Origin: an uncultured Clostridia bacterium
Lineage (GTDB): Bacteria > Bacillota > Clostridia > Christensenellales > Pumilibacteraceae
DNA: 64,000 bases
Direction of reading: 5' to 3'
Assembly: GCA_947581755.1 (NCBI GenBank)
Contig: CANPVN010000001.1
Span: forward strand, 1-64,000
Part shown: positions 28,789-58,336 of the stretch, in pieces
Layout: each line of letters starts with the position of its first letter
How positions within the stretch are numbered: position 1 is the stretch's first letter
Position numbers and translations under genes: made by a program
The notes under the pieces: generated by a model
The model's input: the letters and a program-made list of their open reading frames with translations, nothing else
What the model was told of the DNA's origin: nothing
The model's database searches: none

Positions 28789-29913
28789 ATGATAGTTCTA
28801 TATATTTTGTTGGCAATAGTTGTTTTGTTGGTAATGATAATAGTCCATGAATTTGGGCATTATCTCGCGGGCAAAATACTGAAATTCAAAATAAACGAAT
28901 TTTCGGTAGGCTTCGGACCGAAAATTTTTTCCAAGAAAAAAAAGAACGGAGAGGTATTTTCGTTAAGATTGATACCGTTGGGCGGCTATTGCGCTTTTGA
29001 CGGAGAAGACGAAGTCGATTCCGAAAAGAACGAAGAGCCTTTCCCCGAAGAAACAAAACCGCAAGAAGAACAGTGTGAGGAACAGCCTCGTTTGAAGAAG
29101 TTCAACGAGCAACCTCCTTGGAAAAGAATAATCGTGCTTATAAGCGGCGGAATGTTCAATATACTTTCGGCGATAATCTTTTCATTGATGTACGTGGCAA
29201 TCGTAGGCGCGCAGATCCCTGTTATTTCTTCCGATCTCGTTGCCGACAGACTTATGGAAGGCGATCGGATAGTCGCGGTTGAAGGTGTGGAAGTCAGTGT
29301 TTTACATCCGTTTAATGAAATTTTTCCTGCGGCAGAGGAAGGTAAAGCCGTAACGGTAACGATAGAGAGAAACGGAGAAAGAAAAGACGTCGAATTGGTG
29401 GGAAGTCGTTTCGAGATGAAAGACGATAAAGGCAATTATATTTTCGAGAACGGCGAAATAAAGACAGAAGTAAAGTACGGATTGCAATACGGGAATACCG
29501 AGTTCAGAAAATACGGCTTTTTCAAAACCATAGGACTCAGTTTTCCTTTTACGGGGAAAATGATAGGAGCTGTTTTTCAATCTCTTTGGATGTTGATAAC
29601 GGGGCAAGTAGCCATTACCGATGTCACGGGTCCTATAGGTACCGTTACGGTAATTGCGGAATATACTCAAATAAATATTTTGAATTTGTTTGTATTTTTG
29701 CCTTTGATTTCTGCAAATTTGGGAGTTTTCAATTTGTTGCCTATTCCAGCTCTCGACGGGTCGAAGGTTGTATTTTGTTTGATCGAGTGGGTAAGAGGTA
29801 AGCCAATAAAGCCGGAGATAGAAGCCAAGATTCATACAATAGGGCTATTTGTTCTGTTTGGATTGGTAATTGCTTTGGATATTGCCGGGCTTATAATCAG
29901 GAGTTTAGGGTGA
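28789..29913 (+). CDS. rseP: Site-2 membrane protease RseP/RasP
   Basis: A 374-residue intramembrane metalloprotease. The zinc motif HEFGH (H20, E21, H24) lies in the first membrane span; a PDZ region follows (about residues 150-230), and the second metal motif with NLLPIPALDGSK is in a C-terminal span. A charged Glu-rich insert (about residues 80-110) is seen after GGYCAF. In Bacilli the orthologue cleaves anti-sigma factors and leftover signal peptides; targets here are unknown. The ispG start overlaps its stop by 4 nt. Confidence 0.94.
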   Translation: MIVLYILLAIVVLLVMIIVHEFGHYLAGKILKFKINEFSVGFGPKIFSKKKKNGEVFSLRLIPLGGYCAFDGEDEVDSEKNEEPFPEETKPQEEQCEEQPRLKKFNEQPPWKRIIVLISGGMFNILSAIIFSLMYVAIVGAQIPVISSDLVADRLMEGDRIVAVEGVEVSVLHPFNEIFPAAEEGKAVTVTIERNGERKDVELVGSRFEMKDDKGNYIFENGEIKTEVKYGLQYGNTEFRKYGFFKTIGLSFPFTGKMIGAVFQSLWMLITGQVAITDVTGPIGTVTVIAEYTQINILNLFVFLPLISANLGVFNLLPIPALDGSKVVFCLIEWVRGKPIKPEIEAKIHTIGLFVLFGLVIALDIAGLIIRSLG

Positions 29914-30947
29914 AACAATTAAAAGTAGGAAATTTAATATTGGGCGACGGTGCAATACCCATTCAATCTATGACCAATGTGCCGACTTCGGACAGAGAAG
30001 CGTTATATGCTCAAGCCAAGTCGCTTATAGATAACGGTTGTGATTTGGTACGAGTTGCGGTATGCAGTCGCGCCGAAGCGGAGATTTGTTCGAAAGTATT
30101 CGTTGAACTGAACGCTCCCGTTTGCGCCGATATTCAATATGATTATAAATTAGCCGTTTTATGCAGTGATTTGGGCTTTGCGAAGGTTAGGATAAATCCC
30201 GGGAATATAGGCGGCGACGACAAAGTCGGAGAGGTCGTTGCCGCGGCAAAAGCCAACGGCACGGTACTCCGTGTCGGCGTAAATTCAGGCAGTTTACATA
30301 AAGATATAACAGCGCAATACGGAAAAGGCGCCGAGGCTATGGTAAAAAGCGTCGAGCAAAATTTGAGAATTTTGGAAAGACATAATTTCTTCGATACCGT
30401 TGTGTCGTTAAAGAGCAGTTCGGTGGCGTTGACTGTCGAGGCGAATCGTTTGTTCAGAAGTCGTTTTGATTATCCCTTGCATATAGGGATAACGGAAAGC
30501 GGTATCGGTGAAAATGCCGTCATAAAGTCGGCAATCGGAATAGGAGCGTTGTTATTGGATGGAATAGGAGAGACATTGAGGGTTTCTTTATCGGGCGATC
30601 CCGTTGCCGAGGTCGTTTATGCAAAGAAAATCCTGCGAGCGTTGGGAAAGGATAAAAATTTTTGTGAAGTTATCTCTTGTCCCACTTGCTCGAGATGTAA
30701 TTACGACCTTGCATCCATTGCCGATAAATTTCAAAAAGCGACAGCGAGCATTACAAAACCCGTAAAGGTTGCGATAATGGGTTGTTCTGTCAACGGAATA
30801 GGAGAAGCCGGAGACGCCGATTTCGGCATCGCCGGCGGTCGTGAAGATTGTGTAATATTTGCTCACGGAAAATTGATCCGTAAGCTGCCTTTCAACGAGG
30901 CTTATAATGAACTGCTGAAAATGGTAACGGAGTTTACAAATGAATAA
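29910..30947 (+). CDS. ispG: 4-hydroxy-3-methylbut-2-enyl diphosphate synthase
   Basis: A 345-residue [4Fe-4S] enzyme converting MEcPP to HMBPP, the sixth MEP step. GAIPIQSMTNVPTSD at the start, ADIQYD and RVGVNSGSL in the barrel, and the iron-sulfur domain with C257, C260 and C292 plus NGIGEAGDADFGIAGG are diagnostic. The GTG start overlaps rseP. In Bacillus the same slot carries proS, so ispG here completes an isoprenoid run. Confidence 0.95.
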   Translation: MKQLKVGNLILGDGAIPIQSMTNVPTSDREALYAQAKSLIDNGCDLVRVAVCSRAEAEICSKVFVELNAPVCADIQYDYKLAVLCSDLGFAKVRINPGNIGGDDKVGEVVAAAKANGTVLRVGVNSGSLHKDITAQYGKGAEAMVKSVEQNLRILERHNFFDTVVSLKSSSVALTVEANRLFRSRFDYPLHIGITESGIGENAVIKSAIGIGALLLDGIGETLRVSLSGDPVAEVVYAKKILRALGKDKNFCEVISCPTCSRCNYDLASIADKFQKATASITKPVKVAIMGCSVNGIGEAGDADFGIAGGREDCVIFAHGKLIRKLPFNEAYNELLKMVTEFTNE

Positions 30948-32490
30948 TTTAATGGTACGCTTCCATGACGAAACATTGGGAGAATTCGAATATCTTAAAT
31001 TAAATCTTTTGACTATAATCAAAAGTCGGAATGTTTTGGAGATAGATTTATCTTGTCCGCGTAAGTACGAAGAGACGGTTCGAAAGAATTTGTCTTATTT
31101 GGAAAAAGTTTTTGCCGATATTTTGGATGTAGACTATAAGATAGAAGTAAAATACAATTGTCCCGTATTCGAAAAGGACAAATTCATTCAGGATGTTATT
31201 GACTTTTTGGATGCGTATCCCGTTGTAAAAGGCAATCTTAAAAGAGAAAATATTTCCGTAGAAGACAGAGACGATTCCATAAAATGCGCTCTTAAGTTCG
31301 ATAAAAGTACTTATGATTATTGTCGGGGAATAAATTTGGTTCTTATTTTGAATAAGTTTGCGCGAGATAAATATTTCGACACAATAAGTTTTGAAATTTC
31401 TTCTTATGAAAATTCATTTGATTTTTCCGTTTTGGAAAAAAACGATATAATAGTTGAGGATAAAAATAATCTTATCGGCAACAGCCTTATGAGAAGGATA
31501 ACGGTTACCGATGTCGAAAGATACATAGGCTATGAAATAACAGGGGACGCTTTTTATATAGAGGACGCGACCGAAGGCGAAAAAATCTTTTGCGGAACTA
31601 TTGAAAATTATACCGAAATCAAAAGGAAACCCAAAGAGGGAGAAAAACAAGAAGATTTAAGACCTTTTTATAAATTTGTTTTAAGGGATTTTACGGGAGA
31701 GATCAATTGCGTGTATTTTCCCACAAAAGCTTCTTTTCCAAAAATGGCGGAGATAAAAAACGGTATTACCGTAAAGGCTCAAGGAATGGTAGAGAAAGAC
31801 AATTATACTCAAGGTCTCGTATTCAAGATCAGATCCATATCGTTTTGTAAATTGCCCGAAAACTTCGAGAAGGTCATCATCAAAAGGTGTGTGCCGAGGG
31901 AGTATATTTGCGTTCATCCCAAGCCTTATTTCACGGCGGTCCAAAAAGACCTGTTCGGCTTATCGGAAATCCGAATTCCGCCTTATCTGTCGGATAAAAC
32001 ATTTTGCGTATTCGATACCGAAACAACAGGGTTGGACCCTCGATTGGACAAAATTATAGAGATAGGCGCAGTTTTGTTGGAACACGGAAAAATCACTCAA
32101 ACATTTCAAAGTTTTATAAATCCGCACAGGGGATTGACTCCCAAAATAAGACAACTGACAAATATCACCGAAGCCGACTTGATCAACGCTCCCGAAACCG
32201 AAGATGTTTTATCGGATTTTTATAAATTCAGTTACGGATTGCCGTTGGTGGGACATAATATCAAATTCGACTACGAGTTTATTACCATGGAAGGGAAACC
32301 TTATAATATAGTTTTCGAAAATGAGCTTGTAGATACTTTGACTCTTGCGCAAAAGTTTTTGTCCTTGCGGCATTATAAGTTAGATAATGTGGCAAAATAT
32401 TTTGCCATAGTCAACGAGGGCGCGCACAGAGCGATATACGACGCATTGACAACCGCAAAGATTTTTATGAAATTTGCCGAAAGGCTATAA
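30940..32490 (+). CDS. PolC-derived protein: PolC N-terminal and OB domains plus DEDDh 3'-5' exonuclease, no PHP or polymerase
   Basis: A 516-residue protein at the locus where polC normally lies (after the uppS-rseP genes and before rimP). Residues about 1-150 resemble the PolC N-terminal region in layout and charge; residues about 180-310 form the OB-like domain (GTIENYTEIKRK, FYKFVLRDFTGEINCVYF). The stretch that should hold the first half of the PHP domain is reduced to about 40 residues without its HxH motifs. Residues 355-516 are a complete exonuclease: ExoI D359 and E361 (FDTETTG), ExoII N440/D444 (GHNIKFDYEF), ExoIII H496/D501 (HRAIYDAL). The gene then ends; no polymerase sequence follows. 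It overlaps ispG by 8 nt. It may be a stand-alone proofreading nuclease; its partner is unknown. Confidence 0.85.
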   Translation: MNNLMVRFHDETLGEFEYLKLNLLTIIKSRNVLEIDLSCPRKYEETVRKNLSYLEKVFADILDVDYKIEVKYNCPVFEKDKFIQDVIDFLDAYPVVKGNLKRENISVEDRDDSIKCALKFDKSTYDYCRGINLVLILNKFARDKYFDTISFEISSYENSFDFSVLEKNDIIVEDKNNLIGNSLMRRITVTDVERYIGYEITGDAFYIEDATEGEKIFCGTIENYTEIKRKPKEGEKQEDLRPFYKFVLRDFTGEINCVYFPTKASFPKMAEIKNGITVKAQGMVEKDNYTQGLVFKIRSISFCKLPENFEKVIIKRCVPREYICVHPKPYFTAVQKDLFGLSEIRIPPYLSDKTFCVFDTETTGLDPRLDKIIEIGAVLLEHGKITQTFQSFINPHRGLTPKIRQLTNITEADLINAPETEDVLSDFYKFSYGLPLVGHNIKFDYEFITMEGKPYNIVFENELVDTLTLAQKFLSLRHYKLDNVAKYFAIVNEGAHRAIYDALTTAKIFMKFAERL

Positions 32491-32599: not shown

Positions 32600-33055
32600 T
32601 TGGATATCAAAAAGTTGGGCGAACAAATTTCTCCTACGCTCGAAGGTTTGGGGTACGAGTTGGTAGATATAGAATACGTTAAAAAGTACGGAGACATGCA
32701 TCTTATAATCTATATCGATACTCCTGCCGGAATAACCCTCGACGATTGCGAGAAAGCGAGCAATGCTCTCGACCCTCTTCTCGATGAAATAAATCCCACG
32801 GCAGATGCGCCGTACTCATTAGACGTTTCTTCTCCCGGGTTGGACAGACCTTTCAAAAAGCAACGCGACTACGAGAGAAATTACGGCAAGGAAGTAGAGA
32901 TAAAATTGTATGCTCCGATAAAAGGCAAAAAAGTTATCGAAGGCATACTGAAAGAAAAGACCGAAAACGTATTGACCGTCGAAGTTAACGGTGAAGACAA
33001 AACAATAGAATGTAACAGAATTGCGGTAGTCAGACCGCTTGTTAAATTCGAGTAA
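32600..33055 (+). CDS. rimP: Ribosome maturation factor RimP
   Basis: A 151-residue RimP, needed for 30S maturation. The N-terminal alpha/beta domain (LGYELVDIEYVKKYGDMHLIIYID...ITLDDCEKASNALDPLLDE) and the signature LDVSSPGLDRPFK are followed by the SH3-like domain. The TTG start at 32600 has GAGGAGG 8 nt upstream and matches family N-termini. First gene of the nusA operon, as in Bacillus (ylxS). Confidence 0.94.
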   Translation: MDIKKLGEQISPTLEGLGYELVDIEYVKKYGDMHLIIYIDTPAGITLDDCEKASNALDPLLDEINPTADAPYSLDVSSPGLDRPFKKQRDYERNYGKEVEIKLYAPIKGKKVIEGILKEKTENVLTVEVNGEDKTIECNRIAVVRPLVKFE

Positions 33056-33074
33056 TCACGGAGGAACAATTTTA

Positions 33075-34214
33075 ATGGTAAACAAGGATTTTTATGCCGC
33101 GCTTGACGAACTTGAATCGCAAAAACATATAAAGAAGGAAGTTTTTCTTCAGGCATTGGAAACGGCTCTTACTATTGCTTATAAAAAACATACAGGTGAA
33201 AGCCGAGCAATAGAGGTGAGACTTTCTCCCGAGCGCAACACAATCAGGATTTTTGCATATCTTACTGTAGTGGAACAAGTCGAAGACAGAGATACTCAAA
33301 TAAGTCTCGAAGATGCCAGACTCAAAGACAAAAAGATAAAAATAGGCGAGACTGTAAGTGAGGAGATAAATTCCAAGGATTTCGGCAGAATTGCGGCTCA
33401 AACAGCAAGACAGGTTATAATGCAAAAACTGAGAGAAGTCGAAAGTGAAATTGCTTACAGTGAACTCAGCCAAAAAGAGGACGAATTGATTACCTGTGTT
33501 GTACGACGTATCGAAGGCGATAATGTTTATGTGGAAATAAATAAATTGGAAGCGTTGTTAGCTCCCGCGGATCAAGCGCCTCATGACCGATTCAGCGTGG
33601 GTGACAGAATAAAAGTTTATGTAAAAAAAATCAAACCCGGCAATCACGGTCCTCAGATAATGGTATCGAGAACTGTTGCGGGATTTGTAAAAAAACTTTT
33701 CGAACTCGAAGTGCCCGAGATTGCCGCCGGACTTGTAACTATTAAATCGATCGTGCGCGAAGCGGGTTACAGAACCAAGATGGCGGTTTACAGCGAGGAT
33801 AGTTCCATCGACGCTCTCGGAGCATGCGTCGGTAATCGCGGAATGAGAGTAAATGCGATTGTTTCAGAACTCGGCGGCGAAAAAATCGATATAATTCCTT
33901 GGTGTCCCGATATATTGGAGTTTATAGCGCGTTCTTTGTCTCCCGCAAAAGTTGTGGCGGTACAGGCGATCGACGAGGAAAAAGTCGCAAAAGTAATAGT
34001 TATGGACGATATGTTATCGTTGGCAATAGGTAAAGACGGACAGAATGCGAGACTTGCGGCAAAACTTACGGGTTGGAAAGTCGATGTCAAGCCTTATTCC
34101 AAATATCTTATAGAGCAAGAAGAAGAAAAAGCGGAGGAGCCTCAAAGTAAGGAGACAAACGAAGAGGACGACCTTTCCGAATTGGACTCTTTGGAGGATG
34201 ACGGTGACAAATAG
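33075..34214 (+). CDS. nusA: Transcription termination/antitermination factor NusA
   Basis: A 379-residue NusA binding RNA polymerase and nascent RNA. Order: N-terminal polymerase-binding domain (to about 125), S1 (about 135-200), then KH1 and KH2 (ACVGNRGMRVNAIVSELGGEKIDIIPW; LAIGKDGQNARLAAKLTGW), and an acidic C-terminal tail. The E. coli-type C-terminal repeats are absent, as in Firmicutes. The ATG at 33075 is chosen: GGAGG is 10 nt upstream and earlier in-frame ATG would overlap rimP. Confidence 0.96.
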   Translation: MVNKDFYAALDELESQKHIKKEVFLQALETALTIAYKKHTGESRAIEVRLSPERNTIRIFAYLTVVEQVEDRDTQISLEDARLKDKKIKIGETVSEEINSKDFGRIAAQTARQVIMQKLREVESEIAYSELSQKEDELITCVVRRIEGDNVYVEINKLEALLAPADQAPHDRFSVGDRIKVYVKKIKPGNHGPQIMVSRTVAGFVKKLFELEVPEIAAGLVTIKSIVREAGYRTKMAVYSEDSSIDALGACVGNRGMRVNAIVSELGGEKIDIIPWCPDILEFIARSLSPAKVVAVQAIDEEKVAKVIVMDDMLSLAIGKDGQNARLAAKLTGWKVDVKPYSKYLIEQEEEKAEEPQSKETNEEDDLSELDSLEDDGDK

Positions 34215-50019: not shown

Positions 50020-52092
50020 ATGGCAGTAGCGGCGATGAAAAAAATCCGTCTTATCGGATTGCGAAAGGACGGAGACAAAATTTTGGATATTTTGGCGCGA
50101 AGTTGTTCGTTCGAGCCTTTAACCGTACCCGAGGTGGATGGGGCGCGGAAGATTATGCCGCTCGAGAACACAGACAAGCTTTTATCCAAACGGGCAAAAC
50201 TTTCTTTTGCCATCGATTTTTTGTCTTCGCAGAACAAAAATGCCGCCGAAAAAATAAAGAAAGCAAAAAAGAAAAAAGAACAGACGATCGAATATACTCC
50301 ATATAAAGAAACGAGCAAAAAAGAAATAATAGGTATGTCGGATTTGTATGATGTGGGCGCGGAAGAGTACGAACTCATGTCGGCTGTTCGGGATATTGAA
50401 AAGATAAGTACGGAAATAGGAGATTTAAATTCTCAGATTGCAAAACTCAAGGCGAAAGAATTGAGTTATTTGCCGTATTCGGGACTTACTCTTAAATTTT
50501 CGGAAATGAGAGACACAAAACGCATTTCCGTTATCATAGCGCAAACGCAATCGGTAAATCAAAAGACTTCGAATTGTCTTGACGGACATACTGCGTGCGT
50601 GCAGAACTATTATAATAAGAAGGGAATGGTCACCGTCGCGGTGTGTCTCATAGAACAAAAACCCGAAATTCTTTCGGCATTGAACGACGCGGGTTTTTCG
50701 TTATGTCCTTTTGCGGATGATGCGACAGCGGATAATATTATAGCTTCGATACAAAACGAAATAGCGCAACTTGAAAAATATATAGAGCGAAAAGTTTCCG
50801 ATGTTCTTTCATACGAGAAGTACATGTTCGAATTTAAACTTCTGTATGACTTTTATACTTTGGAATTGGAAAAAGACGGGGCTGAGGCAAAATGCAATCA
50901 GACTGCTTATACGTTTAATATGGAAGGGTGGATTCCCGAGGTCAACTGCGATAAGATCGTCGAAAAACTCAAAAAAGAATTCGGCGCGCTCATTATCGTT
51001 ACGGAAACGCCTCAAAAAGGCAAGGATGAGCCGCCTACGTTGCTCAATAACCCGAAGTTAATAAAGCCCTTTGAAGATGTTACGAACCTTTATTCTTCGC
51101 CCAATTATTTTGAATTCGATCCCAACCCTATAATGGCAGTCTTTTTCTTTATTATATTCGGTATTCTGACTGCGGATTTCGGTTACGGATTGATACTGAT
51201 GATCGGTTGCCTTGCCTTTGTCAAATTCGCAAAACCTCAAGGGGGACTGAAAAATCTGTTGACATTATTCGGTATATGCGGATTGTCAACCGCGCTCATG
51301 GGACTTGTTTTCAACGGAATTTTCGGTTACGCGATCTTCGGAGAAGGCTCTGTTCTGGAAATGTTAGGCATAAATACAGGTGTAAAATTATATTGGTTTG
51401 CCATGATGGACGAGCCGATGAAGCTTTTGGCTTTATCCATTGCGATAGGTATCGTTCATATAACCGTGGGATATATAATAAAACTTGTTGCGTTACTTAA
51501 AGAAAAGCAATTTGTTGCCGCAATATGCGATGCGGGATTTATGATAGTGATTATGTGCGGTATAGGCTGTTTGGCATTCGATGTTTTGCTTTATGCTTTT
51601 CAGACGAATGTTTTGAGTCTGTCGGGAGGAGCGTTGCCCGAAGCAACTGCGGATTTGCTTTCTAAAATAGGTATGTACTTGCTCTTGGGTGGAATTGCGG
51701 CGAACTTCTTTACCGCAGGTCGCGGTAAGAAAATCGGCGGCTATCTTGGCGCAGGATTTAACAGTATTTACGGACTGGTCAATTTGATTTCCGATATTTT
51801 GAGTTATTTGAGAATTTTCGGTATCGCATTGGCAAGCGCTTCCATAGCCTGGGCATTCAACACATTTATAGGAGTACTTGTAGATATCTTGCCTATAGGC
51901 GTAAATTATGTGGCGGGAGTAGTCATATTCATTGTAATGCACTTATTCAATATTGCGCTTGGACTTTTGGGAGCCTATGTCCACAATGCAAGACTTCAAT
52001 TCCTTGAATTTTACGGTAAGTTTTATACTGGAGAGGGCAGACTTTTTGCGCCTTTGGGTTCCAAATCCAAGTATACTATGATAGGGAAATAA
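50020..52092 (+). CDS. ntpI: V-type ATPase subunit I (membrane stator)
   Basis: A 690-residue protein: a long N-terminal cytoplasmic half with coiled coil (about residues 1-360), then about seven membrane spans beginning near PIMAVFFFIIFGILTADFGYG. The conserved arginine helix region (DILSYLRIFGIALASASIA) carries the arginine that faces the ion-binding glutamate of the ring. It forms half of the ion channel. Two nt separate it from ntpF; ntpK follows after 58 nt with its own RBS. Confidence 0.95.
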   Translation: MAVAAMKKIRLIGLRKDGDKILDILARSCSFEPLTVPEVDGARKIMPLENTDKLLSKRAKLSFAIDFLSSQNKNAAEKIKKAKKKKEQTIEYTPYKETSKKEIIGMSDLYDVGAEEYELMSAVRDIEKISTEIGDLNSQIAKLKAKELSYLPYSGLTLKFSEMRDTKRISVIIAQTQSVNQKTSNCLDGHTACVQNYYNKKGMVTVAVCLIEQKPEILSALNDAGFSLCPFADDATADNIIASIQNEIAQLEKYIERKVSDVLSYEKYMFEFKLLYDFYTLELEKDGAEAKCNQTAYTFNMEGWIPEVNCDKIVEKLKKEFGALIIVTETPQKGKDEPPTLLNNPKLIKPFEDVTNLYSSPNYFEFDPNPIMAVFFFIIFGILTADFGYGLILMIGCLAFVKFAKPQGGLKNLLTLFGICGLSTALMGLVFNGIFGYAIFGEGSVLEMLGINTGVKLYWFAMMDEPMKLLALSIAIGIVHITVGYIIKLVALLKEKQFVAAICDAGFMIVIMCGIGCLAFDVLLYAFQTNVLSLSGGALPEATADLLSKIGMYLLLGGIAANFFTAGRGKKIGGYLGAGFNSIYGLVNLISDILSYLRIFGIALASASIAWAFNTFIGVLVDILPIGVNYVAGVVIFIVMHLFNIALGLLGAYVHNARLQFLEFYGKFYTGEGRLFAPLGSKSKYTMIGK

Positions 52093-52150
52093 TTTCGGTT
52101 TTATGCACTATGTGCTTTAACGATAAACATTCTTTTGGAGGAAATTTATT

Positions 52151-52687
52151 ATGACAACGGGACACATTTATGGTCTTATCGGAGCCGCACTTGCGATTAT
52201 ACTTTCTTCGATCGGCTCGTCGATTGCCGTAGGCAGGGCAGGACAGATGGCGGGCGCCATTATGTCTAAGGATCCGAGCAAATTTACAAGTTCTATGATT
52301 TTGACTCTTTTGCCTTCTTCGCAGAGTTTGTATGGTTTGATAGTTGCATTCCTTGCAATCTCTCAGATGAAAATTTTGGGAACTCCGGATCCGTTATTCT
52401 CGACTTCGGACGGATTATCCATGCTTTTGTTGTGCTTGCCTGCGGGTGTAATAGGACTCATAAGCGCATTGTTCCAAGGCAAGGTCGCTATGACCGGTAT
52501 GGAACTTTGCATGAAGCAAGAAGGACAAATGGGTCGTGCAATCATTTTTGCCGCATTCGTTGAGATTTTTGCCATATTCGCACTTGTTATATCTTTGGTC
52601 GGAGTTGTTTCGATTAAGGCTACGGGAACTCCTTCGCTGGATATTCCTGTGGAAGAAGCGGTAAAAGCATTGACAGCTCTTATCTAA
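52151..52687 (+). CDS. ntpK: V-type ATPase subunit K (rotor ring), sodium-type site
   Basis: A 178-residue protein with four membrane helices (two fused c-type hairpins). Only the second hairpin has the ion-carrying acid, E138 in FVEIFAIFALVIS; the corresponding first-hairpin position is PSSQSLYG. Sodium ligands known from the E. hirae ring have counterparts: S57/Q58 (for Thr64/Gln65), Q109 (FQGKVA, for Gln110) and E138 (for Glu139). This suggests sodium coupling. RBS ttggagg precedes the ATG. Confidence 0.94.
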   Translation: MTTGHIYGLIGAALAIILSSIGSSIAVGRAGQMAGAIMSKDPSKFTSSMILTLLPSSQSLYGLIVAFLAISQMKILGTPDPLFSTSDGLSMLLLCLPAGVIGLISALFQGKVAMTGMELCMKQEGQMGRAIIFAAFVEIFAIFALVISLVGVVSIKATGTPSLDIPVEEAVKALTALI

Positions 52688-52698
52688 AGGAGCCGCCA

Positions 52699-53286
52699 AT
52701 GGATGAAAAACAGGCAATTATTTCGCAGATAATTTCCACTGCAGAAGCAACTGCAAAGAGTATAGTGGACGGAGCGCAGGCAGAGCAGGACAGGCTCGTA
52801 ACCGAAAGAGCCGCTTTGGATGAAAAGAAAAATTCGGTGGTTTTGGAAAAAGCGCAAAAAAATGCCGAAGAAAATATCAAACGAAGCGAAATGCTTGCAA
52901 AGCTCGATGCGAAGAAATATTTGCTCGAAGTCCGACAGAAGGCGATTTCCGAGGTTTATCTGTTGGCTGTGGATAATCTCTCTCGACTTGAGGACGATAA
53001 GTATCGCAATTTATTTGCAAAATTCATTTTGGAGTTTGCCCTGGACGGAGATAAAATTTCCGTTTGCGAAAAAGATAAAGCCCGATTGAATGACGATTGG
53101 CTTAAATCTTTGTCAACCGAGAAAGGGATAAAACTTGTGTTCGGCGAAAACCATAATTATAAAGGCGGTATTATAATATCGGGAAAGAAGTACGATATTA
53201 ATTGTACTTTGGAAGCGCTTGTAGCCGGAGCGAGAGATAATACCGAGAAAAAAGTTTCGGAGATTTTATTCGGAAATAATGGATAA
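52699..53286 (+). CDS. ntpE: V-type ATPase subunit E (peripheral stalk)
   Basis: A 195-residue protein: a long N-terminal charged coiled coil (to about residue 90) and a globular C-terminal domain ending KYDINCTLEALVAGARDNTEKKVSEILF, as in subunit E. It links the catalytic head to subunit I together with NtpF. RBS aaggag precedes the ATG; the 3' end overlaps ntpC by 8 nt. Confidence 0.92.
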   Translation: MDEKQAIISQIISTAEATAKSIVDGAQAEQDRLVTERAALDEKKNSVVLEKAQKNAEENIKRSEMLAKLDAKKYLLEVRQKAISEVYLLAVDNLSRLEDDKYRNLFAKFILEFALDGDKISVCEKDKARLNDDWLKSLSTEKGIKLVFGENHNYKGGIIISGKKYDINCTLEALVAGARDNTEKKVSEILFGNNG

Positions 53287-54247
53287 TATAAAAAGCGCGA
53301 TTTATTCGAATACACTTGCAATGATAAGGGAAAACGGGATGTTGACGGAAGAAAAATTCATTCGTCTTTCCGACGCCGATTTTTCCGACGCATTAAAAAT
53401 GTTGCGAGATTACGGTTACGGAACATCCGATGTCGAGGATGCCGGAGATTTTGTCACGTCCGGAATAAATTCTCTTATTGCTTTTATCCGAGAAGAATGC
53501 CATTCTTCGAATCTCAAAAGTTTTATTCTGAATCAATTTTATTATGGCAATGCTCAATTGTTGTATAAATCGAGATTTGTGGACGTGAATCCCAAAGCTT
53601 TTTATGAAATCGGAGGGATGGAAGAATTAAAAAACGCAAATGAAAAGCGTAATTACGAAGATCTTCCCAAAAACATGCGTGAGGCTTTCGAAACGCTTGA
53701 TTTGAAAGCAGAGCAGCATCCTTTAACGGCAAGAGAAATAGATATAGTATTTACTCGAGCAATGAATAAGGATAATTTGAAAAACTCTGCAAAATGCGGG
53801 CGTAACATAAAGCGTTATTATCGTAAAAAAATCGATTTGACGAATTTTATTACATCGTTAAGATGCAGAAGATTGAATATTCCCGAAGAAACGTGCAGAG
53901 AAATGCTTTTGGAAGGCGGGTTTACGGAAATCGGATTCTTTTCGGAGTTGATTAAATTGCCTGAAGATGGCTTCAACGAGGCAATGAAACAAACCGGATA
54001 CGAGAAGATAATTCCGGCTGAAGATATATCCGATTTATCTAAGGCAGAAGAACGGGCAAATGATTATCTTTTGGGCTTTACCAAAGCGCAGATTGTCGAT
54101 TATACCGCCAACGAACCGTTTTTGAGATATTTCCTTTTACAAATGAGAGAATTCGGTTTGATAAAATTTTTGTTGATTTCTTTGAAAAACGGAGACAGAG
54201 AACGACTGAAAGGGAGGTTGAAAGAACTTTATGATTCAGTCCGCTAA
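53279..54247 (+). CDS. ntpC: V-type ATPase subunit C (d-type central adaptor)
   Basis: A 322-residue, all-helical protein joining the central axle to the rotor ring. SLRCRRLNIPEETCREMLLEGG and the C-terminal EPFLRYFLLQMREFGLIKFLLISLKNG are characteristic of subunit C/AC39. It overlaps both neighbours (8 and 17 nt). Confidence 0.92.
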   Translation: MDNIKSAIYSNTLAMIRENGMLTEEKFIRLSDADFSDALKMLRDYGYGTSDVEDAGDFVTSGINSLIAFIREECHSSNLKSFILNQFYYGNAQLLYKSRFVDVNPKAFYEIGGMEELKNANEKRNYEDLPKNMREAFETLDLKAEQHPLTAREIDIVFTRAMNKDNLKNSAKCGRNIKRYYRKKIDLTNFITSLRCRRLNIPEETCREMLLEGGFTEIGFFSELIKLPEDGFNEAMKQTGYEKIIPAEDISDLSKAEERANDYLLGFTKAQIVDYTANEPFLRYFLLQMREFGLIKFLLISLKNGDRERLKGRLKELYDSVR

Positions 54248-54557
54248 GATAGCCGTTATCGGTGATAAAGACAGTATTTTGGCATTCAAAGCCGTAGGTG
54301 TCGAAGTTTTTTCGGCAAACAACGTCTTTGAAACAAATAATATTTTGAGAAAACTTGCAAAAGAAAATTACGGAGTGATTTTCATTACCGAAGATATAGC
54401 GGCTCTTGTCCCCGATACATTGGATAAATTAAAAGACAGACCTACGCCGGCGGTTATACCTATACCTTCTTCGCAAGGAGCGACGGGATTCGGTATGGCG
54501 GGAATCAAAAAAGACGTAGAAAGAGCTATTGGCGTAGATATTTTGTTTAATAAGTGA
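54231..54557 (+). CDS. ntpG: V-type ATPase subunit F (NtpG)
   Basis: A 108-residue small alpha/beta protein binding the axle: [33 protein letters not shown], and [33 protein letters not shown]. The motifs are diagnostic for subunit F. It overlaps ntpC and nearly abuts ntpA. Confidence 0.95.
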
Positions 54558-54565
54558 GGAATAAT

Positions 54566-56326
54566 ATGAACGGAAAAATTGTTAAGGTTTCTGGACCTTT
54601 GATTGTTGCCGAAGGTATGGGCGATGTTAAGATGTATGACGTCGTCAAAGTCAGTAAGCATAAACTTATAGGCGAAGTTATCGAATTGAGAAATGATTTG
54701 GCTTCCATTCAGGTCTATGAAGAGACAAGCATGCTTCAACCCGGTGAAGAAGTAGAAAGCACCGGAGAACCGCTTTCCGTGGAACTTGGACCGGGACTTA
54801 TGGAAGGAATATTCGATGGTATTCAAAGACCTTTGAATGTTTTGGTAGAAAGAAGCGGAGACCGTATAGGAAGAGGAATTGCCGTTACCGCTTTGGATCA
54901 TAGTAAAAAGTGGCATTTCATTCCCACAAAAAAGAGCGGAGATAAAGTTGAAGCGGGCGATGAAATAGGCTATGTTAATGAAAACGAAGTTGTTCGCCAT
55001 GTCATAATGGTGCCTTATGGCTTAAACGGAACAATAAAAGAAATTGTCGAAGGCGATTTTACCGTTGACGAACAGATAGGAGTACTTGAAACGGAAAAAG
55101 GCGCCGTTACTCTTAAAATGTTGCAGCGTTGGCCTGTTCGACGAGGCAGACCTTATCGCGAGAAGATGGCTCCAGTCACTCCTATGATTACGGGACAGAG
55201 AGTAATAGATACATTGTTCCCGATTGCAAAGGGCGGCGTCGCAGCCGTTCCCGGACCCTTCGGTTCGGGTAAAACCGTCGTACAACATCAGTTGGCGAAG
55301 TGGGCGGATGCGGATATAATCGTGTATATAGGTTGCGGTGAACGAGGAAATGAGATGACTGATGTTTTGCAAGAGTTTCCCGCTTTGAAAGATCCGAAAA
55401 CGGGAAAACCATTGATGACAAGAACGGTTTTGATTGCAAATACATCGGATATGCCCGTTGCCGCGAGAGAAGCGAGTATCTATACGGGAATAACGATTGC
55501 CGAATATTTCCGCGACATGGGATACAGTGTCGCTATTATGGCGGACAGTACATCGCGATGGGCGGAAGCCTTGAGAGAAATGAGCGGACGTTTGGAAGAG
55601 ATGCCCGGTGAAGAGGGCTATCCCGCATATCTTTCGAGTCGTCTTGCGGAATTTTACGAGAGAGCGGGTATTTGTAAATTGCTTGGGTCGAAAGATAAAA
55701 TAGGCTCCATAACCGCAATCGGAGCGGTTTCTCCTCCGGGCGGCGACATGAGTGAACCCGTTTCTCAGGCAACTTTGAGAATTGTTAAAATATATTGGGG
55801 ACTATCGAGCGCGCTTGCGTATAAAAGACATTTCCCCGCGATAGATTGGCTTGTAAGTTATTCGCTTTATTCCGACAAATTGGCGGATTGGTTTTCCGAG
55901 AATGTTGCTCCGGATTGGTCCACATATACCGGAGATACGATGAGGGTTCTTCAGGAAGAGGCGCGTCTCGATGAAATTGTTCGTCTTGTAGGTATGGACG
56001 CTTTGTCTCCTCGGGATCGTTTGACTATGGAAGCGGCAAAATCGATCCGTGAAGATTATTTGCATCAAAACGCTTTCCATGAAGTCGATACTTATGCGTC
56101 CGTACAAAAACAGTATAAGATGTTGAAATTGATAATAGATTATTATTTCGAAGGCATGAATGCGTTGGATAACGGCGCCGATATCGAAGATATTTTGACG
56201 ATACCCGCGCGTGAAGGCATCGGACGAGCCAAATATATACCGGAATCCGAAATAAGCGAAATAGATAAGATAGAAAACGAAATGAAATCTCAGCTTGGAT
56301 CGCTTGCGGTAAAGGAGAGTTTCTGA
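54566..56326 (+). CDS. ntpA: V-type ATPase catalytic subunit A
   Basis: A 586-residue catalytic subunit with Walker [12 protein letters not shown] at about residues 230-240, the non-homologous insert (about 110-200), the glutamate-switch region GCGERGNEM and [32 protein letters not shown]. The ATG at 54566 follows gtgagg by 6 nt and matches family starts; a GTG at 54554 is less likely. Overlaps ntpB by 1 nt (TGATG). Confidence 0.97.
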
Positions 56327-57705
56327 TGGACAGAGAATATCGCACAATAAAAGAAGTTGTAGGACCCTTGATGCTTGTAGAAGGCGTAGAAGGCGTCGGA
56401 TACAACGAGTTGGTTGAAATCGAACAGGCAGACGGAGAAATTCGTCAAGGTAAAGTTCTGGAGATCAACAAAGACAAAGCCTTGGTTCAGCTTTTCGAAG
56501 CAAGTCAAGGACTTAAAATAAGTTCTTCAAAAGCAAGGTTTTTGGGGCACAGCATAGAATTGGGCGTCTCAATGGATATGTTGGGCAGGGTGTTTGACGG
56601 TATGGGCAAACCGAAGGATGGCGGCGCTCCGATTATTCCCGATGCAAGAGTAGATATAAACGGTGAACCCATAAATCCCGCTGCTCGTGATTATCCCGAT
56701 GAGTTTATACAAACGGGAATTTCGGCAATTGACGGATTGAACACTCTTGTCAGAGGACAAAAATTGCCTGTGTTCTCTGCGAGCGGTTTACCTCATGCGA
56801 ATTTAGCTGCGCAGATAGCGCGTCAAGCAAAGGTCTTAAAAGAGGGAAGCAAGTTTGCCGTAGTGTTTGCCGCTATAGGTATAACTTATGAGGAAGCGGA
56901 TTTCTTTGTTTCTGATTTCAGAAGAACGGGAGCGATAGACAGAACAGTACTTTTTATGAACCTTGCTTCGGATCCCGCTATCGAAAGAATTTCCACACCG
57001 AGAATGGCTTTGACTGCAGCAGAGTACCTTGCTTTCGAAAAAGGAATGCATGTGCTTGTAATTATGACAGACATAACAAACTATGCCGAGGCATTGAGAG
57101 AAGTTTCTGCGGCAAGAAAGGAAGTTCCCGGACGACGTGGTTATCCCGGATATTTATATACGGACCTTGCAAGTCTTTACGAAAGAGCAGGAAAGATAAA
57201 AGGACGAGAGGGATCTATAACGCAAATTCCCATTTTGACTATGCCCGAGGATGATAAGACTCATCCCATTCCCGACTTGACAGGTTATATAACGGAAGGA
57301 CAAATCATATTGTCGAGAGATCTTTATAAAAGAGGTTACAATCCTCCCATAGATGTTTTGCCTTCGTTGTCTCGATTGAAGGATAAAGGTATAGGAGAAG
57401 GCAAGACCAGGGAAGATCATGCGGATACAATGAATCAATTATTTGCCGCTTATGCAGCGGGAAAGGATGCGAAAGAATTATCCGCGATATTGGGCGAAGC
57501 CGCGCTTACCGAGGTTGACAAAAAGTATGCAAAGTTTGCCGAGAAATTCGAGAGACGTTATATAGCGCAAGGATTTGACGAAAATCGTTCTATAGAAGAA
57601 ACTTTGAATCTCGGTTGGGAGTTGTTGAAAATTTTACCGAGAACGGAATTGAAGCGTATCAAAGATAAATATATAGAAAAGTATTTGCCTCAAGAGGTGA
57701 AGTGA
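56326..57705 (+). CDS. ntpB: V-type ATPase subunit B
   Basis: A 459-residue non-catalytic nucleotide-binding subunit. [41 protein letters not shown] replaces a Walker A, as typical for B, followed by [38 protein letters not shown] and [34 protein letters not shown] aaaggag precedes the ATG. Confidence 0.97.
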
Positions 57706-57706
57706 G

Positions 57707-58336
57707 ATGGCAAGACTTGCAGTAAATCCCACAAGAATGGAGTTGAGACGGCTCAAAGATCGACTTAAAACCGCTCAACGAGGTCATAAGTTGCTTAAGG
57801 ATAAATCCGATGAAATGATACGTCAGTTCATGAATTATGTCAGACAAAACAAGCAATTAAGAGAAGAAATAGAGGATGAACTTCGCAGAGCGTTACAAAA
57901 ATTTATGTTTGCGGGAGCCATGCGACCCGTTCAGGAAATAGAACAAGCGCTTGCGATGCCGAGTTATAAAGTCGACGTTTCGATAGGCACAAAAAACGTA
58001 ATGGGCGTAGATGTTCCGGATATATCCATAACGCCGTCTGCGTCAAATGAATTACTGCCGTATAATTTTGTTTCGACTTCTGCGGAAACAGATGAAGCTA
58101 TTATAACGATTTCCAATTTGATTGAAAAAATGTTAAAACTTGCGGAAATAGAAAAGACATGTAATATGCTTGCAAATGAAATAGAAAAGAACAGAAGACG
58201 CGTCAATGCTTTGGAATATGTTGTCATTCCTCAGTTGGAAGAAACCATCAAATACATTGTCATGAAACTCGATGAAAACGAAAGGGCTAATTTGATCAGA
58301 CTGATGAAAGTCAAGACGATGATAGAAAACAGATAA
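57707..58336 (+). CDS. ntpD: V-type ATPase subunit D (central axle)
   Basis: A 209-residue helical protein: N-PTRMELRRLKDRLKTAQRGHKLLKDKSDEMI at the start and EKNRRRVNALEYVVIPQLEETIKYI near the end are the two long helices of the rotary axle. It ends the operon at a terminator. Confidence 0.96.
   Translation: MARLAVNPTRMELRRLKDRLKTAQRGHKLLKDKSDEMIRQFMNYVRQNKQLREEIEDELRRALQKFMFAGAMRPVQEIEQALAMPSYKVDVSIGTKNVMGVDVPDISITPSASNELLPYNFVSTSAETDEAIITISNLIEKMLKLAEIEKTCNMLANEIEKNRRRVNALEYVVIPQLEETIKYIVMKLDENERANLIRLMKVKTMIENR

Follow-up and report, generated by a model that had tools for sequence, protein, structure and literature searches.

A polymerase-free descendant of PolC occupies the polC locus in an order of Clostridia and probably serves DnaE

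INTRODUCTION

The epsilon subunit (DnaQ) of Escherichia coli DNA polymerase III is a stand-alone DEDDh exonuclease that serves DnaE and carries a short clamp motif near the exonuclease domain, after it. PolC of the Bacillus subtilis type holds its exonuclease within one chain, in the order N-terminal domain (NTD), OB domain, PHP domain split by the exonuclease, polymerase, and HhH. Errors of DnaE are proofread in trans by the PolC exonuclease in B. subtilis, where DnaE also brings PolC to the primer end (PMC5627055). The NTD of PolC is a domain pair related to domain V of tau for which a contact with the clamp loader has been proposed (PMC3919608). The consensus motif for binding to the sliding clamp is QL[S/D]LF or QxxLF (PMC12309361).

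Clostridia that have only DnaE1, as well as PolC that lacks the exonuclease, are known from the C-family polymerase surveys of 2013 and 2026. Why Clostridia have PolC in addition to a DnaE1 that is seemingly able to replicate alone has been left open (PMC3919608). In the openly searchable literature that we covered, we found no description of a PolC without a polymerase. The 2026 survey covers complete representative genomes only and would therefore miss most of the metagenome-assembled genome (MAG) lineages that carry the protein described here, which we call SA, for stand-alone PolC-derived protein.

RESULTS AND DISCUSSION

Locus and domain architecture

The gene for SA lies at 30940..32490 (+) of the window, which is the whole 64,000-nt stretch of DNA that was analysed, and encodes 516 aa from an ATG. 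Its start overlaps the end of ispG (29910..30947, +) by 8 nt, and 109 nt separate it from rimP (32600..33055, +), which is followed by nusA (33063..34214, +). The order ispG-SA-rimP-nusA is that of the polC position, as the first-pass annotation had proposed, and the 8-nt coupling and 109-nt gap that it reported are both present in the sequence. Among the relatives described below, ispG and rimP-nusA bracket SA and PolC alike wherever the contig permits the comparison, and the locus of SA is that of PolC in the sister families.

SA is the N-terminal third of PolC, i.e., the NTD, the OB domain, and the exonuclease in the same order. The NTD (NI plus NII; residues 1 to 175; 30940..31464, +) matches that of PolC with an E value of 1.8e-9 and is modeled with a pLDDT of about 90, and the OB domain (residues 176 to 315; 31465..31884, +) gives an E value of 3.5e-17 with hhalign. 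Single-sequence searches did not see these two domains beyond a weak, sub-threshold Pfam match (PF01336) at residues 238 to 290; they surfaced when residues 1 to 315 of the SA family were compared as a profile with 24 PolCs from the same order, other Clostridia, and Bacillota. In that comparison, residues 15 to 302 of SA and the NTD and OB domains of PolC (27 to 312) are collinear (hhalign E value of 2.2e-23; probability, 99.5), which upholds the earlier reading of these regions as PolC-like.

The exonuclease domain (residues 350 to 516; 31987..32487, +) was found directly by Pfam (RNase_T at 357 to 509; E value of 1.6e-34) and by NCBIfam. It is of the PolC type and retains all of the residues first listed for it: D359, E361, D444, H496, and D501, which are the DEDDh catalytic residues shared with DnaQ, and N440, which is the conserved Asn of ExoII and not itself a DEDDh residue. 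PolC models score best among those of NCBIfam, only over the exonuclease (350 to 515) and far under their full-length cutoffs. In the DnaQ-type test (TIGR01406/TIGR00573), SA scores 106.6 with the general subfamily model TIGR00573, above the cutoff of 71.5 and lower than with the PolC models, and 83 with the proteobacterial DnaQ equivalog, below the cutoff of 222.7. In the PDB, Thermotoga PolC provides the closest sequence match, through its exonuclease domain.

An AlphaFold model built with 29 sequences has a mean pLDDT of 87, with the NTD, OB, and exonuclease domains all well formed, residues 158 to 182 disordered, and the linker around 331 to 350 poorly ordered. Its top Foldseek match is a solved PolC (9qpc), on which a second aligner covers residues 193 to 516, i.e., the OB domain plus the exonuclease; the rmsd is high, presumably because the placement of the domains differs. 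The fold searches were largely uninformative for residues 1 to 192, because exonuclease matches crowd the lists.

SA differs from PolC in lacking the polymerase core and HhH, as the frame stops after the exonuclease, and in lacking PHP, for which there is neither a motif nor a Pfam match. In place of the N-terminal half of PHP, alignment with PolC places a flexible linker of about 34 aa (residues 316 to 349; 31885..31986, +). The first-pass annotation had described about 40 residues without PHP motifs here; PHP is indeed missing, but the stretch is not featureless, since it holds the sequence QKDLF at residues 335 to 339 (31942..31956, +).

A putative clamp-binding motif in the linker

QKDLF, which is modeled with a pLDDT of 60 to 68 around it, is a putative sliding-clamp-binding motif, predicted from its resemblance to the consensus and its conservation. 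The pattern Q-x-x-[LIMF]-[FYL] is present in the linkers of 85 of 93 SAs with a live exonuclease, versus 5.7 expected and a maximum of 16 in 2,000 shuffles of the linkers. Of these 93, 87 have Q at position 335 and 81 have F at position 339, in a stretch that otherwise varies. None of 16 PolCs inspected has a clamp-type motif at this place; the same 16 have a QxSLF-like motif at the extreme C terminus, a part lost in SA, and no motif of the QLSLF type is found at the extreme C terminus of SA. A few SAs lack a QxxLF motif, among them those of family f6 and of G090 (L102), G095 (L095), G065 (L098), and G015 and G028 (L065/L068). The OB region of the G090 protein is also shortened.

A stand-alone DEDDh exonuclease with a short clamp-type motif nearby and a predicted role in serving DnaE is reminiscent of epsilon. 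However, SA is not derived from DnaQ, its motif stands before the exonuclease domain whereas that of epsilon stands after it, it has an NTD and an OB domain in addition, and the DnaE of its host has an active-looking PHP domain.

Distribution and history

We tallied by hand 101 genomes, comprising that of the host, 60 from the same family, and 40 from the same order. SA is encoded in 77 of these (in one case split over two contigs) and full PolC in 19; the two are mutually exclusive (0/101 with both). Neither is found in the remaining 5, three of which are only 67 to 84% complete. With E value cutoffs of 1e-30 and 1e-85, SA was not seen in 113 sampled genomes from other orders of the class or in 148 further genomes of a phylum sample. 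A scan of named genomes added 29 SAs; the sources are MAGs of uncultured Clostridia or the like, and one bears the name Candidatus Coproplasma stercoripullorum.

PolC is the nearest relative of SA by profile, tree, and structure, which, together with the locus, bears out an origin from PolC via loss of PHP and the polymerase, and we regard the domain identity and this history as established. A single change separates SA from PolC on the exonuclease tree, and genomes without PolC form one clade, plus G098, on the DnaE tree; therefore, one ancient loss of PHP and the polymerase would be the simplest history. What had been read as a deletion at one locus is thus an ancient, order-wide family. It is a mirror image of the PolC without an exonuclease known from Clostridia and Negativicutes, which likewise represents modular loss within PolC but has kept the polymerase (PMC3919608). 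Both PolC and SA are missing from G098 (family f11; 96% complete), although G070, its closest relative by DnaE, has PolC; G098 has thus lost PolC separately and completely. A second origin of SA in G098 was ruled out, as the 307-aa DEDDh protein of this genome clusters on the tree with other proteins of the DEDDh type and not with SA.

Exonuclease decay in three lineages (see below) and the few SAs that have lost the motif could be taken to mean that SA is a decaying remnant, or that polC was deleted in assembly. Such an explanation is very unlikely and is already refuted for the family: the same architecture recurs in about 77 independently assembled relatives and 29 named MAGs, the frames are intact, there is no second polC, and dN/dS values of 0.04 to 0.2 among close SA pairs indicate purifying selection. 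These observations rule out an assembly error or pseudogene and agree with the initial view, drawn from the intact catalytic residues and the coupling to ispG, that SA is not decaying.

A probable trans-acting proofreader for DnaE

At 97% completeness, the 1.67-Mb host genome yields a single match to PF07733 and a single one to TIGR00594, both in the same 1,232-aa DnaE on contig 6. It has no polC elsewhere, the PolC model matching only exonuclease and PHP/DnaE fragments, and its dnaN is present and normal. DnaE, suggested from the outset as a possible partner, is therefore the only replicase left for SA to serve. It has a clamp motif of its own (GQISFFDF) and all nine PHP residues (HHDHEHCDH). 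Incomplete sequences apart, the same holds for nearly all DnaEs of 56 genomes, with or without PolC, and all nine residues are kept wherever their columns are covered; inactivation of PHP in DnaE is thus ruled out as the reason for retention of the exonuclease. SA is consequently not the sole candidate proofreader, and a DnaE with an intact PHP domain does not obviously need a second one. A parallel is the noncanonical DnaQ of mycobacteria, a second proofreader beside a PHP-active DnaE1 (PMC12926913), although the protein and its domain make-up differ from those of SA. The host genome also encodes another DEDDh exonuclease (contig 5, 84608-85060, -; a 225-aa frame), which lies near a frame for a Pol I-type 5' nuclease and is a further candidate proofreader or repair nuclease.

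A role in proofreading for DnaE in trans is consistent with the retention of the NTD, OB domain, and exonuclease together with a clamp-type motif, and SA, which descends from PolC, is probably such an exonuclease tethered to the clamp. The PHP and polymerase domains and the C-terminal clamp motif of PolC would have been lost in the common ancestor of most families of the order, after which DnaE would have taken over all replication, and the residual protein would have been retained with a QxxLF motif in the linker before its exonuclease. From the motif and the domain homologies, we infer the partner, clamp binding, substrate, and proofreading role as follows: behind DnaE, the linker motif would tether SA to the free site of the beta clamp; the NTD may contact the clamp loader or DnaE; the OB domain may capture the single-stranded 3' end where it frays; and mispaired 3' ends would be removed in trans by the DEDDh domain, beside the PHP proofreader of DnaE.

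Alternatively, SA could be a clamp-directed 3' exonuclease that acts not on errors of DnaE but in repair, such as excision in mismatch repair, cleaning of 3' ends, or processing of Okazaki or recombination ends. The intact PHP site of DnaE would leave room for this, and the fold of SA also matches DEDDh domains of the DinG, RNase T, ExoX, and ExoI types. However, SA has stayed at the polC locus with the NTD and OB domain of PolC, so inherited replisome contacts are more likely, and the PolC exonuclease is known to proofread for DnaE (PMC5627055). We consider the repair function improbable.

Lineages with a dead exonuclease

Of the 76 unsplit SAs in the set of 101 genomes, 64 have intact catalytic residues, as do all 29 of the named homologues. 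These residues are replaced in three lineages, i.e., genus g8 (10 genomes), G079, and G076, all of which retain the NTD and OB domain in a full-length frame. All 10 of the g8 proteins keep a motif of the type Q-x-x-[LIMF]-Y, and their dN/dS is 0.18 to 0.44 overall and lower (0.12 to 0.33) in the OB domain. A comparable case is PolA2/APEX of Actinobacteria, which has a QxxLF clamp motif along with a vestigial exonuclease (PMC12926913) but is a family A polymerase, whereas SA has no polymerase at all.

These lineages would fit a protein that is chiefly a structural or regulatory adaptor of the replisome. On the lagging strand, its NTD, OB domain, and clamp motif would join DnaE to the clamp and the clamp loader and so take over from PolC as an architectural element, which would leave the exonuclease optional. 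The clamp loader contact proposed for the PolC NTD (PMC3919608) points the same way, as does the possibility that DnaE proofreads for itself via PHP. Against this, the exonuclease residues are intact in the 64 relatives and 29 named MAG homologues, and the strongest constraint in genus g18 falls on the exonuclease (dN/dS of about 0.05 versus 0.08 to 0.16 in the NTD). An adaptor role as the main function is therefore unlikely, if less so than the repair function.

A separate DEDDh exonuclease of about 200 aa (PF00929), forming one family, is encoded in all 11 g8 genomes and in G079 (E value below 1e-30; loci of the family are L113:1984-2580, L268 to L272, and L274 to L281), and none of the 64 genomes with a live SA has a match below 1e-20 outside SA itself. 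There is no close copy in G076. The family also occurs in G070, in whose PolC the first Asp is replaced by Y, and in G087, with a live PolC, and was not found in G072 or G099, both with a dead PolC exonuclease. A perfect swap is thus ruled out. Three of four independent contrasts agree and none disagrees, in an independent-pairs test that cannot reach significance with four contrasts (sign test, P = 0.25). It is suggestive that the exonuclease activity is needed and was handed over to the ~200-aa protein in two independent SA lineages. The substituted catalytic residues in full-length PolCs of the order read YENDHD in G070 (L046), SRNTFE in G099 (L047), and SRSSTE in G072 (L049).

Since the exonuclease is dead in three lineages that keep the rest of the protein, the term "proofreading module" of the first-pass annotation is not the whole story; the intact catalytic residues elsewhere and DnaE as sole replicase speak for it, but the dead exonucleases and the intact PHP of DnaE do not. 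We therefore infer that the probable clamp-tethered proofreader has a noncatalytic scaffold role at the replisome as well, in places as its sole role. More tentatively, SA may be an unnamed replisome subunit, a second replicase turned into a clamp-bound, polymerase-free accessory with exonuclease-dependent and -independent roles, the latter surviving as a pseudoexonuclease in three lineages or more, with the same kind of separate exonuclease encoded in two of them.

Implications

The order amounts to a natural experiment: the polymerase of PolC could be dispensed with, but the NTD-OB-exonuclease part could not. The prediction that follows is that PolC acts on DnaE in trans through its exonuclease/scaffold half. 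One large group of gut-type Clostridia has lost the polymerase half, and the exonuclease that remains probably serves DnaE. The family offers a putative clamp motif that can be put to the test, and its exonuclease-dead members are ready-made variants. PolC inhibitors such as ibezapolstat would also have no target in these bacteria, which bears on the sparing of the microbiome.

Other features of the window

An Rfam scan of the 64,000 nt gave no match. A run of genes at 50020-58336 resembles, as recognized by eye, a V/A-type ATPase operon.
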